Assembly: GCA_018241665.1 (NCBI GenBank)
Contig: JAFEDK010000013.1
Coordinates: 1 to 64,000 of the forward strand
Direction: 5' to 3'
Length of the DNA: 64,000 nt
From: Pseudomonadota bacterium
GTDB taxonomy: Bacteria; Pseudomonadota; Gammaproteobacteria; Burkholderiales; Rhodocyclaceae
Shown here: piece by piece, positions 5,360 through 11,098 of the stretch
Layout: every line of letters begins with the position of its first letter
How positions within the stretch are numbered: the first letter of the stretch is position 1
Position numbers and translations under genes: made by a program
Notes under the pieces: model-generated
Seen by the model: the letters and a program-made list of their open reading frames with translations, nothing else
Database searches by the model: none
Told to the model about the DNA's origin: nothing

Positions 5360-5386
5360 TCAAGATTGTTTGCCCCCCGCCGATAT
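5360..5386 (+). promoter_or_regulatory. Probable sigma-28 promoter of cheV
   Basis: TCAA at 5360-5363 and GCCGATAT at 5379-5386 are separated by 15 bases, close to the FliA consensus TAAA-N15-GCCGATAA (10 of 12 defined positions). It lies about 61 bases upstream of the first cheV ATG and just after a terminator, as expected for the promoter of the cheV-cheV-cheY-cheZ-cheA transcript. Confidence 0.72.
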
Positions 5387-5446
5387 TGCTTCCAAGTCGA
5401 GGCCTGCCCCATCGGGATGGCAGGTGGTCTGCGACGGAGAGTGAGC

Positions 5447-6415
5447 ATGTCCGAACTTCTCAAGAACATCGATGCGCGTACCCGTCTGGCGGGTACGAAC
5501 AAGCTCGAGATCCTGCTGTTTACCCTCGGGGTCGATCCCCGCACCGGCCGGCGTGAGACCTTCGGCATCAACGTCTTCAAGGTCCGTGAGGTCATGCGCA
5601 CACCTCCCATCACCGCCGCGCCGGAAATGCCGTCGTCGGTGGAGGGGATGGTCAGCCTGCGCGGCGTGCTGGTACCGGTGGTCGATCTGGCCAAGTATGC
5701 CGGCATGGGCAGCGAAGGCCCGCGCGACATCATGATCGTCACCGAGTACAACGGGCACACCCAGGGCTTCCTCGTCGAGGCGGTCGATACCATCCTGCGC
5801 CTGGACTGGTCGCAGATGCGGGTGCCGCCGGACATGCTCACGGCCAACCTGGGTGGCCTGGTCACTGCGGTGACCGAACTGCCTGGCCCCAAGCTGGTGA
5901 TGCTGCTCGACGTTGAGAAGGTGCTGTCCGAGACCACCCGTTACGACGACGAATTCCTGTTCAAGGGGATCGAGCCGATCGCGGTCGATGAGCCGCTGAC
6001 CGTCTATTTTGCCGATGACTCCTCTGTCGCCCGCAAGCAGATCGAGCGCACCCTCGACGCGCTGGCCGTGCGCTATGTCGGGGCGGTGAACGGGCGCCAG
6101 GCCTGGGACGAGCTCGAGAAGCTGGCCAGCTTCGCGGCGTCCAGTGGTCGCAAAGTCAAGGACATGGTGGCGCTGATCCTCACCGACGTGGAAATGCCGG
6201 AGATGGACGGCTACATCCTGACCAAGCGGATCAAGACCGACCCTCGGTTCGAAGGGATCCCCGTGATCATGCATTCGTCGCTGTCCGGCATGTCCAACCA
6301 GCAACTTGGCCGTTCGGTGGGCGTTGATGAATACGTTGCGAAGTTCGAGCCGCAGCGGCTGGCCGAAGTGCTGCGCCGCCTGATCACCCAGCGCACCGCA
6401 GCGAAGGCGGACTGA
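5447..6415 (+). CDS. cheV: CheV coupling protein (CheW-receiver), copy 1
   Basis: CheV joins a CheW-like coupling domain (roughly residues 15-165) to a receiver domain (roughly 185-320). It links chemoreceptors to CheA and can itself be phosphorylated. Visible CheW-type blocks include GINVFKVREVMRTPPI and GMVSLRGVLVPVVDL. Receiver landmarks are YFADDSS, the phospho-acceptor Asp in LILTDVEMPEMDG, and the conserved Lys in YVAKFEP. The ATG at 5447 follows a GGAGAGTG ribosome site; the reading frame is open further upstream but crosses the promoter. Compared with copy 2, it carries a short insertion (DPRTGRR) early in the CheW domain. It is 322 residues from this start. Confidence 0.94.
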   Translation: MSELLKNIDARTRLAGTNKLEILLFTLGVDPRTGRRETFGINVFKVREVMRTPPITAAPEMPSSVEGMVSLRGVLVPVVDLAKYAGMGSEGPRDIMIVTEYNGHTQGFLVEAVDTILRLDWSQMRVPPDMLTANLGGLVTAVTELPGPKLVMLLDVEKVLSETTRYDDEFLFKGIEPIAVDEPLTVYFADDSSVARKQIERTLDALAVRYVGAVNGRQAWDELEKLASFAASSGRKVKDMVALILTDVEMPEMDGYILTKRIKTDPRFEGIPVIMHSSLSGMSNQQLGRSVGVDEYVAKFEPQRLAEVLRRLITQRTAAKAD

Positions 6416-6430
6416 AGGAAGTAGAGGAGC

Positions 6431-7387
6431 ATGATGAGCATGGATCATGTCGATCGTGGGCTGCTTGAGGCCGTCGATGCCCGCACGAAGCTGGCGGGCT
6501 CCAACCGCATGGAAATCCTGTTGTTCTCCCTGGGTACCCAGGAGATCTTCGGGATCAACGTGTTCAAGGTACGGGAGGTGTCCCGTACCCCCTTCATCAC
6601 CAAGGCGCCCAACATGCCAGTGGGGGTGGAAGGGCTGATCTCCCTGCGCGGCAACGTGATCCCGGTGCTTGCCCTGGCCAAGATCATGGGCATCGCGGCA
6701 CCCGGCGATCCGCTCGGCGGATCGATGATGGTGACTGAATACAGCAAGCGCACCCTCGGGTTCCTGGTGCACGAGGTGGACCGCATCATCCGTGTCGAAT
6801 GGGACAAGGTGCGGGCGCCGGATAACGTTACCTCGTCCGGCCACCATTTCATCACCGCGATCACCGAACTGCAGGACGGCAAGCTGGTCTCCATCCTCGA
6901 TGTGGAAACCATCCTGGCGAGCACCTTCGGCGAGGCCATCGTCGGCCAGATCCACCCGCTGGAAGGCGGTCAGGATGCGACGGTGTTCTTTGTCGATGAC
7001 TCGGCGGTGGCCCGCAAGAAGATCGTGGAAACCCTGGACAAGCTCGGTGTGCGTCACAAGCATGCGCTCAACGGACTGGAAGCCTGGACCCGTCTGGAGG
7101 GGATGGCGACCCACGCGCAGCAGCGTGGCATCAGTCTCTCCGATGAACTCAACCTCATTCTGGTCGATGCGGAAATGCCCGAGATGGATGGCTACGTATT
7201 GACCCGCAATATCAAGGCGGACGCCCGTTTCGAGGGTATTCCGGTTGTCATGCACTCGTCCCTGTCTTCGGAGGCCAACCGGGCGATGGGCAAGAGTGTC
7301 GGCGTCGATTCCTACGTGGCCAAATTCGATGCCGAAGTCCTGGCTGATACCCTGCGCCCCCTGCTGATGCGCGCCTACCGGGATTGA
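6431..7387 (+). CDS. cheV: CheV coupling protein (CheW-receiver), copy 2
   Basis: 318-residue paralogue of the preceding gene with the same architecture: CheW-like domain (GINVFKVREVSRTPFI, GLISLRGNVIPVLAL) then a receiver domain (VFFVDDSAVARKK; Asp in LILVDAEMPEMDG; Lys in YVAKFDA). It starts 15 bases after copy 1 with a GAGGAG-type ribosome site. The two copies look like a tandem duplication that has diverged in sequence. No stand-alone CheW gene is visible in the window, so these proteins may supply the coupling function for the CheA encoded downstream; a CheW elsewhere in the genome cannot be excluded. Confidence 0.94.
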   Translation: MMSMDHVDRGLLEAVDARTKLAGSNRMEILLFSLGTQEIFGINVFKVREVSRTPFITKAPNMPVGVEGLISLRGNVIPVLALAKIMGIAAPGDPLGGSMMVTEYSKRTLGFLVHEVDRIIRVEWDKVRAPDNVTSSGHHFITAITELQDGKLVSILDVETILASTFGEAIVGQIHPLEGGQDATVFFVDDSAVARKKIVETLDKLGVRHKHALNGLEAWTRLEGMATHAQQRGISLSDELNLILVDAEMPEMDGYVLTRNIKADARFEGIPVVMHSSLSSEANRAMGKSVGVDSYVAKFDAEVLADTLRPLLMRAYRD

Positions 7388-7402: not shown

Positions 7403-7801
7403 ATGTCGGACCCCAAGATGAAATTTCTCGTTGTCGACGACTTCTCGACCATGCGTCGGATTGTCCGCAACCTCCTCAAGGAACTTGGTTTCACCAACGT
7501 GGATGAGGCCGAGGACGGGCAGATCGCGCTGCAGAAGCTCAATTCCTTGCCGTTCGACTTCGTGGTGACGGACTGGAACATGCCCAACATGGATGGCCTC
7601 ACCTTGTTGCAGAACATCCGTGCGACGCCGTCCCTCAAGCACCTGCCGGTCCTGATGATCACCGCCGAGGCGAAGAAGGAAAACATCATCGCGGCGGCCC
7701 AGGCCGGCGCCAGCGGCTACATCGTCAAGCCTTTCACGGCGGCAACCCTTTCCGAAAAGCTCGAGAAGATTTTCGAAAAGATGGGCAAGAAGGCTGCCTG
7801 A
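7403..7801 (+). CDS. cheY: CheY chemotaxis response regulator
   Basis: 132-residue single receiver domain that, when phosphorylated by CheA, binds the flagellar switch and changes motor rotation. All landmark residues are visible: acidic pair at 12-13 ([10 protein letters not shown]), phospho-acceptor Asp57 in [12 protein letters not shown], the Thr/Ala segment in [11 protein letters not shown], and the conserved Lys in [11 protein letters not shown]. The length and closeness to enterobacterial CheY suggest a canonical motor-binding CheY. It is followed by cheZ after 27 bases. Confidence 0.97.
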
Positions 7802-7828: not shown

Positions 7829-8665
7829 ATGGCAAAACGGCTTAAATTCGATGAATCCGGCGACAACGACGATCTGCAAGCCCTTTTTGACAGCATTGCC
7901 GACGGAGCCCCGCCAGCTCCTGCTGCACCGCCCCCCCGCCTCGAGGTCGTGTCTCCGGCCAGCAGCGCCGGAGGGGATGACGATGAGCTCCAGGCCCTGT
8001 TCGATTCCGTGGCCAGCGAATACTCGTCGGAAGACACGAATGTCGAGGCGGAAGAGCGGCCGCACAGTTGCGATGCAGTCTTCAACCGGATCGGCGTGAT
8101 GACCCGGCAGCTTCATGACACCCTGCGCGAGCTCGGTTACGACCGCAGCCTGCAGGAGGCGGCCCATGCGATTCCGGATGCCCGCCAGCGCCTCACCTAT
8201 ATCGCCGAGATGACCGAGCAGGCGGCCAGCAAGGTGCTCAACGCCACCGATATCGCCAAGCCGATCCAGGACCGGGTCGAGGTCGATGCCGGAGCGCTGC
8301 GCGCCCGCTGGGACCGGCTCTACGCCAACCAGCTGAGCCCGGACGAGTTCCGGCAACTGGCCGGCGAGACCCGCGACTTCCTCGGTACCGTCGTGAACAG
8401 CAGCCGCGACACCAGCGCGCAGCTGATGGAAATCATGATGGCCCAGGATTTCCAGGATCTGACCGGGCAGGTCATCAAGAAGGTCGTGGATCTCGCACAG
8501 AATCTCGAAAAGCAGCTGTTGCAGGTGCTGATCGAGGCGATTCCGGCGGAGCGGAAGGTGGAGGAAGGTCTCCTGAATGGTCCGGTGATCAACGCCGTGG
8601 GGCGTGATGATGTGGTGTCGAACCAGGAGCAGGTGGATGACCTGCTGGAGAGCCTGGGTTTCTGA
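7829..8665 (+). CDS. cheZ: CheZ, phosphatase of CheY-P
   Basis: 278-residue CheZ, longer than the roughly 214-residue enterobacterial protein because of an extended N-terminus. The catalytic region MAQDFQDLTGQVIKKVV carries the conserved Gln that acts on CheY-P, and the C-terminus EQVDDLLESLGF is almost identical to the known CheY-binding peptide of E. coli CheZ. The extra N-terminal part contains two near-copies of an acidic amphipathic motif, DDLQALFDSIA (residues 14-24) and DELQALFDSVA (52-62), joined by a Pro/Ala-rich spacer. These resemble the C-terminal CheY-binding peptide in character, and a related motif occurs in the CheA linker. Whether they bind CheY is untested. Confidence 0.95.
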   Translation: MAKRLKFDESGDNDDLQALFDSIADGAPPAPAAPPPRLEVVSPASSAGGDDDELQALFDSVASEYSSEDTNVEAEERPHSCDAVFNRIGVMTRQLHDTLRELGYDRSLQEAAHAIPDARQRLTYIAEMTEQAASKVLNATDIAKPIQDRVEVDAGALRARWDRLYANQLSPDEFRQLAGETRDFLGTVVNSSRDTSAQLMEIMMAQDFQDLTGQVIKKVVDLAQNLEKQLLQVLIEAIPAERKVEEGLLNGPVINAVGRDDVVSNQEQVDDLLESLGF

Positions 8666-8703
8666 CCGGAAGGTAGCGGGCGAGTCCGCAAGGAGCAGAG
8701 CAA

Positions 8704-10674
8704 ATGAGTGATTTTGGCGGGATGGAAGACCTGCTGCAGGATTTTCTGGTCGAGGCCGGAGATCTCCTGTCGGGCGTGGACAACAAGCTGGTGGACCTCG
8801 AGCGGGCGCCCAATGACAAGGGGCTGCTCAACGACATTTTCCGGGGGTTCCACACCATCAAGGGCGGGGCGGGCTTCCTGAACGCCACCGAACTGGTCAC
8901 CCTTTGTCATCTCACCGAAAACCTTTTCGACAAGCTGCGCAATGGCGAGCTGGAGGTGACGCCGGAGGTGATGGACGTGATCCTGTCTTCCACCGGTGCC
9001 GTCCGCGACATGTTCGGCTATCTGGAGCAGGGCGTGCAGCCCCCGGCAGCAGCCGGCAGCCTGATCGAGAGCCTGCGTCTGGCGATCGCCGGTGGGCTTT
9101 CCGTTGAGCCGGCGGCGGCTCCGGTGCGCGTAGCACAGCCCGCGCCGGCGCCCGCTGCGGTGACTGCGCCCGCGGCACCGATGGCCGCGGCGCCTTCCGC
9201 TGACGGCCTGGACTGGAATGCGCTCTTCGAGACCGTGACCGGAAGCAAGCCCGCAACGCCAACCGTTACGGCGCCCGTGCCGGTGACGATTGAAGCGCCC
9301 CCTCCGGTGGTCATGCATCAGTCGGACGAGGCGCTGGCCCACAAGACGCCCGATCAGATCATCAAGGCCGCCGTTGGCCGGCGTGTGACCGACAAGCCGG
9401 GGGCCTCCGGGCCCATTGGCCGTCGTGACAGCGAGAAGACCCGCGACAACTCGATCCGTGTCGATACCTCGCGTCTCGACCAGGTGCTCAACCTGTCCGG
9501 CGAAATCGGCCTGACCAAGAACCGCCTGAACGCGCTGCGCAGCGACATCCTGAACGGTCGCAACGACACCGAGACCCTGCATGCCCTCGATCTGGCGGTG
9601 AGCCAGCTCGACCTGCTGGTCTCCGACCTGCAGAACGCGGTGATGAAGACCCGCATGCAGCCGATCGGCCGCCTGTTCCAGAAGTACCCGCGGATCGCCC
9701 GCGACCTGGCCCGCAACCTGGGCAAGGATGTGGAGCTGGTGCTGGCCGGCGAGGAAACCGAGATCGACAAGACGATGATCGAGGATTTGTCCGACCCGAT
9801 CATCCACCTGATCCGCAACGCGGTGGACCACGGTGTCGAGGATATCCAGGAACGCCTCGCCAACGGCAAGCCCGAGAAGTCCGTCGTGCGCCTCGAGGCC
9901 CGCCAGGAAGGCGATCACATCGTGATCCTGGTGGCCGACGACGGCCGCGGCATGAACGCCGAGCGTCTGCGCGCAAAGGCTGTGGAGAAGGGCCTCATCA
10001 CCGATGAGGAAGCCAACACGATGGACGAGCGCCAGAGCTTCAACCTGGTGTTCCTGCCCGGCTTCTCGATGGCTAGCCAGATTTCCGACGTCTCCGGCCG
10101 CGGCGTCGGTATGGACGTGGTACGTACCAACATCCAGAAGCTCAACGGCTCCATCGACATCCGCTCCAGCCTCGGCAAGGGCACTACTTTCGTCATCAGC
10201 CTGCCGCTGACCCTGGCGATCCTGCCGGTGCTGCTGGTGCGCCTTGGCGAGCAGCCTTTCGCTGTGCCGCTGTCGATGGTCCGCGAGATCCTGCCGATCG
10301 AGCCGGCCGAGGTCCAGGAAGTCGGCGGCCGGGCGACGATGGTCGTGCGTGGCGAAGTCCTGCCGATCATGCCGCTGACCACCCTGCTGGGCTGGGAGCC
10401 GGTGCAGACGCCCGAGTACGGCGTGCTGATGCAGAGCGCCGAGCAGAGCTTCATCCTGGCCATCGACAGCTTTGCCGGTCGTGAGGATGCGGTGATCAAG
10501 TCCCTCGACGATTTCCGTCCGAAGGGCGTGGCCGGCGTGACCACCCTGTCCAACGGTCAGATCGTGCTGATTCTCGACATGAAGGAACTGCTCGGCGCCC
10601 TCGGCGACACCCGTGGTGGCGTCTCGCGTCGGGAGCTGCTGGCCAAGCTGGAGGTGCCCGCGCTGGCAGCCTGA
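8704..10674 (+). CDS. cheA: CheA chemotaxis histidine kinase
   Basis: 656-residue kinase that receives receptor signals and phosphorylates CheY, CheB and CheV. The N-terminal HPt domain has His50 in FHTIKGGAGFLNATEL. A Pro/Ala-rich linker (about 112-240) follows, with no recognisable folded P2 (CheY-binding) domain but one embedded motif, LDWNALFETVTG (169-180). Then come the dimerisation domain (about 250-310, LSGEIGLTKNRLNAL), the ATPase domain (IIHLIRNAVDHGVED; VADDGRGMNAERL; SGRGVGMDVV), and the CheW-like regulatory domain to the end. It is the last chemotaxis gene of the cheV operon. Confidence 0.96.
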   Translation: MSDFGGMEDLLQDFLVEAGDLLSGVDNKLVDLERAPNDKGLLNDIFRGFHTIKGGAGFLNATELVTLCHLTENLFDKLRNGELEVTPEVMDVILSSTGAVRDMFGYLEQGVQPPAAAGSLIESLRLAIAGGLSVEPAAAPVRVAQPAPAPAAVTAPAAPMAAAPSADGLDWNALFETVTGSKPATPTVTAPVPVTIEAPPPVVMHQSDEALAHKTPDQIIKAAVGRRVTDKPGASGPIGRRDSEKTRDNSIRVDTSRLDQVLNLSGEIGLTKNRLNALRSDILNGRNDTETLHALDLAVSQLDLLVSDLQNAVMKTRMQPIGRLFQKYPRIARDLARNLGKDVELVLAGEETEIDKTMIEDLSDPIIHLIRNAVDHGVEDIQERLANGKPEKSVVRLEARQEGDHIVILVADDGRGMNAERLRAKAVEKGLITDEEANTMDERQSFNLVFLPGFSMASQISDVSGRGVGMDVVRTNIQKLNGSIDIRSSLGKGTTFVISLPLTLAILPVLLVRLGEQPFAVPLSMVREILPIEPAEVQEVGGRATMVVRGEVLPIMPLTTLLGWEPVQTPEYGVLMQSAEQSFILAIDSFAGREDAVIKSLDDFRPKGVAGVTTLSNGQIVLILDMKELLGALGDTRGGVSRRELLAKLEVPALAA

Positions 10675-10792: not shown

Positions 10793-11098
10793 GTGGGTGG
10801 CTTCGATTTCGACTACTGGAAACACCTCGCAGAGCATGATCCCGCTGCTTTTTTCCAGGCCCGGGATAGGGCCCTGCGCCAGTGCATTGCGATGCACCCG
10901 GGCCAGGAAGGCCCGCTCTCCGCGTTGCAGTCCCGGATCGACATGACCCGTGTGCTGGCGGGCAGTCCGGTGCAGGCCTGCAGGGACATCCTCGACATGA
11001 TGGAAGAGCACCTTATCCTGCTCAGCCTGAGGCTGTCCGAACTCCAGCGCGAGACGGACAGCCTGCGGGGGCTGTTGCAGGGCGGCTCCGCGCCCTGA
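10793..11098 (+). CDS. Small DUF3135-like protein
   Basis: 101-residue protein starting with GTG after a GGGGGAGG ribosome site. The N-terminal block FDFDYWKHLAEHDPAAFFQARD, followed by a basic helix, looks like DUF3135 proteins of Proteobacteria (assignment from memory of the family pattern). The rest is predicted helical, ending in a Leu-rich amphipathic stretch. The function is unknown. It stands between cheA and flhB in the same direction, separated from each by about 100 bases, so co-expression with motility genes is possible but not shown. Confidence 0.65.
   Translation: MGGFDFDYWKHLAEHDPAAFFQARDRALRQCIAMHPGQEGPLSALQSRIDMTRVLAGSPVQACRDILDMMEEHLILLSLRLSELQRETDSLRGLLQGGSAP

Follow-up and report, generated by a model that had tools for sequence, protein, structure and literature searches.

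The CheA kinase encoded in the window (the whole 64,000-nucleotide stretch of DNA analysed here) bears a short conserved peptide in a predicted disordered linker, at the place where a P2 domain would be expected, and this peptide resembles the one with which FliM docks CheY. A related peptide is repeated in the N-terminal arm of the CheZ encoded just upstream. Since the CheA and CheZ peptides resemble the grip of FliM on CheY, such a peptide is suggested as a stand-in for the missing P2. The best overall explanation, to which we give an even chance on the basis of sequences and predicted structures, is that FliM-type peptides dock CheY in lieu of P2, the CheZ arm having a part in this as well. 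Docking of CheY would be the most economical reading for the CheA peptide, and for the CheZ copies, CheY docking and array tethering appear close to even, because their motif vanishes with CheA and not with CheY. The initial annotation of this DNA had proposed a short motif that recruits CheY in place of P2; a conserved linear motif and the lack of a recognisable P2 both hold, but the CheA peptide is better explained as FliM-like.

Operon organization

The genes are arranged in the order MCP, two cheV, cheY, cheZ, cheA and a DUF3135 gene (Table 1), and the window is the start of its contig. Downstream of the DUF3135 gene, flagellar genes were read by eye as flhB, flhA and flhF. The host genome is Zoogloea-like, judged from the nearest named relatives of its CheZ, and the operon was assigned to chemotaxis class F6 by gene order and domain make-up, without a class model. 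The first cheV may start at 5444. The DUF3135 gene is located at 10793-11098, between cheA and the flhB-like gene. CheZ contains both the Pfam CheZ core and the AQDFQDLTGQ segment of the phosphatase, and NCBIfam PRK11166 matches its residues 73-278. CheY shares 97 of 128 residues with the CheY chain 2fka_A of the PDB. Within residues 87-125, a stretch that we take to span the known docking face, in agreement with the description of FliM and CheY cited further below, 36 of 39 are identical. With this face kept, the groove for a FliM-type peptide is present. When 73 CheYs next to a CheA of the window type were compared with 23 others, the two groups differed most at positions 63, 65-67, 69-70 and 96 and to a smaller degree at 40, 43 and 85, but the CheY of the window often carries the letters of the other group, so that coevolution was not pursued as evidence for a partner.

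Table 1. Chemotaxis genes and candidate docking peptides in the window.
Feature	Position	Strand	Remarks
cheV (two genes; CheW and receiver domains)	5366..7387	+	array components, alternative partners
cheY	7403..7801	+	presumed partner of the peptides
cheZ, CheY-P phosphatase with long N-terminal arm	7829..8665	+	Pfam CheZ, E 6e-78, residues 83-278
CheZ N motif, copy 1, DDLQALFDSIA, residues 14-24	7868..7900	+	predicted helix 14-24
CheZ N motif, copy 2, DELQALFDSVA, residues 52-62	7982..8014	+	within predicted helix 50-69
CheZ C-terminal peptide EQVDDLLESLGF, residues 267-278	8627..8662	+	predicted helix 266-275
cheA, kinase	8704..10674	+	Hpt, dimerisation, ATPase and CheW domains; no P2 match
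CheA linker motif LDWNALFETVTG, residues 169-180, FliM-like	9208..9243	+	W171 invariance; isolated helix

A conserved peptide in the CheA linker

Pfam searches of the CheA of the window gave no P2 or CheY-binding match, either at E <= 0.01 or at E <= 1, and AlphaFold predicted no folded alpha/beta domain in its linker, in line with the initial annotation, which had recognised no P2 there. Among CheAs of the window type, the Pfam P2 families matched none of 47 at E <= 1, while a CheY-binding domain was matched in 10 of the 18 other-type CheAs (18 linkers extracted out of 25 loci tried), which shows the search to be of limited sensitivity; as only 10 of these match, the remaining eight were assigned to the other type by similarity alone. 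Neither the W motif described below nor the repeat of class relatives outside the order occurs in these 18 linkers, and their FliM scores are like those of shuffles. Four of them (L065, L327, L329, and L334) hold four [YF]GFF repeats each, with fewer in the others, another possible linear motif.

The peptide LDWNALFETVTG was found where the initial annotation had placed it. The LxALF[DE] motif regarded there as shared by both proteins is present in both CheZ copies, but CheA reads WxALFE, with W for the first L. ALF[DE] occurs in 8 of 106 distinct CheA linkers, all in the genus of the window; the identity of the CheZ and CheA motifs holds within the genus, and family-wide the two differ. The linkers compared (112 cut from 117 CheAs, 106 of them distinct, near-copies included and the window's own linker outside the 106) share the consensus DWxxL[HYF]xAVTG. 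The W is present in all 106, once in 105 and twice in one, and the position matching the F of CheZ is H in 44, Y in 31, F in 22 and another residue in 9. The pattern [DEN]Wxx[LMVI] was found in 102/106 linkers and DWxAYYxA[VI]TG in the other four, against 2.4/106 in shuffled linkers. When 47 CheAs were aligned, no column between residues 104 and 251 was invariant except W171; D170 and L174 belong to the nearly invariant ones. AlphaFold predicts an isolated helix at 171-179 of the window CheA (pLDDT about 79 for the block 171-180), while the other ten-residue blocks of 141-250 have a pLDDT of 36-57 and further helices appear only at 208-212 and 216-223. The CheA motif has the form of an acidic-hydrophobic-x-A-L-hydrophobic helix in a disordered segment, helix and disorder both being predicted. 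The initial annotation had asked whether the motif persists in otherwise variable linkers, and in CheA a linear motif is indeed kept in such a stretch. Neither of the two objections to its proposal that sequences can address was borne out, as the motifs are conserved and a folded P2 was not found.

The N-terminal CheY-docking peptide of FliM reads EVDALLKGVTG (the FliM of the host genome begins MAQDFLSQEEVDALLKGVTGE) and aligns to the CheA consensus D-W-N-A-L-H-A-A-V-T-G. The GVTG ending is present in 25 of the 31 FliM loci read in the order, and at the VTG positions CheA has V in 75, T in 72 and G in 83 of the 106 linkers. With the FliM matrix, the W motif was the best window in register in 55/106 linkers, compared with 0.5% of shuffles; scoring W as neutral raised this to 72/106, a figure without shuffle control. 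By score, only 6/106 linkers come out above the 99th percentile of shuffles. The same matrix, applied to the 19296 11-mers of the window, ranked CheZ copy 2 2nd, the CheZ C-terminal peptide 8th, CheZ copy 1 20th and the CheA peptide 86th. The CheA matrix ranked CheZ copies 1 and 2 5th and 9th and scored 49 of the 19296 11-mers at least as high as the FliM peptide, and the CheZ N matrix ranked the CheA peptide 14th. Taken as a single peptide, the CheA sequence bears a modest likeness to FliM. A FliM-like peptide is nevertheless the best explanation for it, and its close match to the CheZ motif is confined to the genus.

Relatives of the class outside the order (the gamma set, 40 of 54 CheA matches outside the host genome) carry ITDDEFEALLDxLHG in 38/40 CheA linkers, with 86 copies, and this repeat is close to the gamma FliM peptide, which is LSQDEIDALLHGV-like in 27 peptides and has VTG in one. 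Scoring of 28 of the 40 linkers, cut differently from those in the 38/40 count, placed the best FliM window in register on the repeat in 27/28, and 25/28 lie above the 99th percentile of shuffles. Judged from the best 25 of 49 matching families, each P2 family could match at most 1/40 gamma CheAs. The gamma linker repeats (L152-L191) also match Pfam SHOCT in 35/40 at E <= 1 (best 3.1e-9), and SHOCT may be another, unexpected reading of them.

Repeats in the CheZ arm

The two arm copies, which the initial annotation had called near-identical, read as it gave them in 7829-8665, and the protein does end in QVDDLLESLGF. The C-terminal peptide of CheZ is a known type of CheY-docking peptide, and its V269, D270, L272, L273, S275, G277 and F278 do not vary in either of two alignments, with 29 and 41 CheZ. 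The recurrence of the motif goes beyond chance: the loose pattern [LIVMFW]x[ADE]L[FLYH][DENQ]x[IVLM] gave five matches in selected genes of the 64 kb window, three in CheZ, one in CheA and one elsewhere. A search of the host genome with a model built on the CheZ repeat recovered both copies and no further match better than E = 1.25; a DNA pattern for the motif, with 43 matches genome-wide versus 17 for the reversed pattern, was uninformative.

An alignment of relatives, as suggested in the initial annotation, showed the arm repeats to be conserved across related CheZ. The motif recurs in beta-type CheZ with 1-3 copies per arm; among 80 named loci, picked by CheZ similarity, 26 have a single copy, 51 have two and 3 have three. 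Its consensus is DSDDL[QE]ALFDS[IV], with the core form DLxALFDS[IV], and L and F are found in 138/138 selected copies, chosen by a regular expression that permits L/I/V and F/L there, L282 (LL) not being included. Three-copy arms were seen at L028, L085, L105, L144, L230, L258, and L268, the third copy of L258 being weaker.

An even draw of the order comprised 150 genomes, with CheZ in 96 of them and 103 CheZ scored. The motif is present in 74/74 scored CheZ that adjoin a CheA of the window type and missing in 27/29 without such a neighbour (Fisher p = 8e-23, ignoring kinship). A CheA neighbour was counted above 100 bits versus the window CheA; the lowest ones counted, of 158 and 160 bits, are both cut by contig ends, and L296 (45 bits) was excluded. 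The W motif and the absence of P2 in the 74 neighbours rest on other, overlapping CheA sets. The CheZ of G283 (L309), short CheZ-like matches in G220, G264, and G305, fragments in G211 and G202 and matches below the cut-off were left out of the count. The two CheZ with the motif and no CheA neighbour are L232, for which the matching CheA of the genome sits on another contig, and L304. The latter (CheZ of G234) has a degenerate copy, DIDSLFDAVA, and L300 (CheZ of G245), scored as motif-less, has the look-alike DMDALFEAAA; no matching CheA adjoins either, and both may be remnants. Eight genomes have two CheZ, and in six of them the motif is found only in the copy adjoining the window-type CheA; of the remaining two, G293 has it in both and G298 is the case with CheA on another contig. 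On a tree of the CheZ core, in which bootstrap support is not settled, the motif requires 7 changes and the CheA neighbour 6; just two independent pairs lie on well-supported (starred) branches, too few for significance, and the tree test is consequently without power.

The CheZ core and the C-terminal peptide are kept in CheZ with and without the N motif. In most genomes with a motif-less CheZ the CheA belongs to the other type, and those of these CheAs that were tested match a CheY-binding domain; G211 yielded no CheA at the cut-off used. The accessible part of a previous study describes how F7 systems took over the CheY and CheZ of F6 systems while the F6 CheA disappeared (PMC7184735), and the motif-less CheZ and the CheAs of their genomes fit this history.

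Candidate partners and mechanism

In a CheA without a recognisable P2, the predicted disordered linker between P1 and P3 would present the peptide DWxxL[HYF]xAVTG in its place. We infer that this peptide binds CheY: it would fold to a helix on binding, mimicking the N-terminal peptide of FliM, and would hold CheY via the alpha4-beta5-alpha5 groove, close to the phosphorylated P1. Phosphotransfer would thereby be speeded, and CheY-P would then be released to FliM and CheZ. CheZ would combine its C-terminal CheY peptide with one to three arm peptides, most likely capturing CheY-P or else tethering CheZ to the array.

Tethering is a substantial if lesser possibility, by which the N motif would fasten CheZ to the F6 array through an array-only component (a CheA domain, CheV or CheW) and not to CheY. 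The motif goes with the window-type CheA while CheY stays, both across the order and between the two CheZ of one genome in six genomes, and this points to a partner in the array. In addition, both types of CheZ retain the core and the C-terminal peptide, and although the CheZ C-terminal matrix found its best window in register in 70/103 arms, only 1/103 exceeds the 99th percentile of shuffles. However, the arm motif is partly FliM-like, as seen from its ranks among the 11-mers and from a FliM 12-mer matrix that falls in register on it in 83/103 arms, 32 of them above the 99th percentile (without register control); the FliM 10-mer matrix brought 0/103 arms above that percentile. Moreover, no pocket for the N motif was found, and the number of CheV is two in 46/50 full loci regardless of motif copy number, a count on which CheV was also rejected as partner by copy number. 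The N motif is found in 0/33 gamma CheZ read, which counts against the tether, and it counts against docking of CheY by the CheZ motif too, as the gamma CheAs do carry FliM-like repeats. The N-terminal helices could also act within CheZ, folding back to regulate the dimer or the active site, and helices are indeed predicted in the arm; this seems quite unlikely, given that their prediction has low to moderate confidence, that unstructured stretches separate them and that the core is conserved in arm-less proteins.

For the CheA peptide, an improbable alternative is a localisation element unrelated to CheY, like the LID of Vibrio CheA that binds ParP. According to the available portions of two reports, LID lies between P2 and P3 of CheA, binds the AIF domain of ParP and is found only together with ParC/ParP (PMC5706961; PMC7534058). 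The gamma repeats do occupy the linker corresponding to the LID position, but ParP, to whose systems those portions limit LID, was not seen in the host genome: no ParP-like fusion is present in six CheW loci read out of 11 CheW-domain matches, a search that a divergent ParP could escape. Among the loci read, L312 has an open frame of 462 aa and was taken to be a CheW that starts at an internal Met; the remaining CheW matches were judged by frame size. Lastly, the eye readily picks out short motifs and the CheZ arms are rich in Pro and Ala, so that the likeness might be due to chance or low complexity; family-wide conservation and the shuffle controls make this very hard to believe.

Docking of CheY by FliM-type peptides would bear on a wider problem. 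A survey of 2023, as far as its accessible text goes, finds nearly 52% of CheA sequences without P2 (PMC10782961), so that the way in which these CheAs capture CheY calls for an explanation. A FliM-like linker peptide would be a direct answer for one class. Titles and abstract openings in the open-licence literature yielded no report of such a motif in either the CheA linker or the CheZ arm. If CheY is docked in this way, writer, eraser and reader would compete for one groove of CheY via the same kind of peptide, with consequences for the speed of signalling and for cross-talk among the chemotaxis systems of a single cell.

Comparison with known systems

The P2 or CheY-binding domain (PF07194, PF09078) and the CheA peptide share their place in CheA and their proposed role; P2, however, is a folded domain, whereas 47 CheAs of the window type gave no match and no fold is predicted in the linker of the window CheA. 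LID and the peptide of the window are both linker elements of F6-type CheA, LID being compared by description, but LID is reported, in the portions cited above, to bind ParP, which the limited search did not reveal in the host genome. The N motif of CheZ and its C-terminal VDDLLESLGF are both amphipathic and their registers partly agree, although the former is internal and without a terminal GF. The EIDALL peptide of FliM/FliY binds a groove of alpha4 and alpha5 of CheY, according to the consulted part of PMC9126983, and it shares with the CheA motif the form of a short acidic-hydrophobic helix, [DE]-hydrophobic-x-A-L-hydrophobic. Both peptides mostly end in VTG within the order, while the CheA motif differs in lying in a linker and not at a protein end, and in having W at the V/I position. 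We tentatively suggest, as a possibility short of a favoured conclusion, that F6 chemotaxis uses one FliM-type peptide code in CheA, CheZ and FliM for the same groove of CheY, and that a change to an F7-type CheA swaps the peptide for a folded P2 and loses the CheZ N copies. Such a code would track FliM by lineage, with VTG in the order and, elsewhere in the class, ITDDEFEALL alongside LSQDEIDALL.
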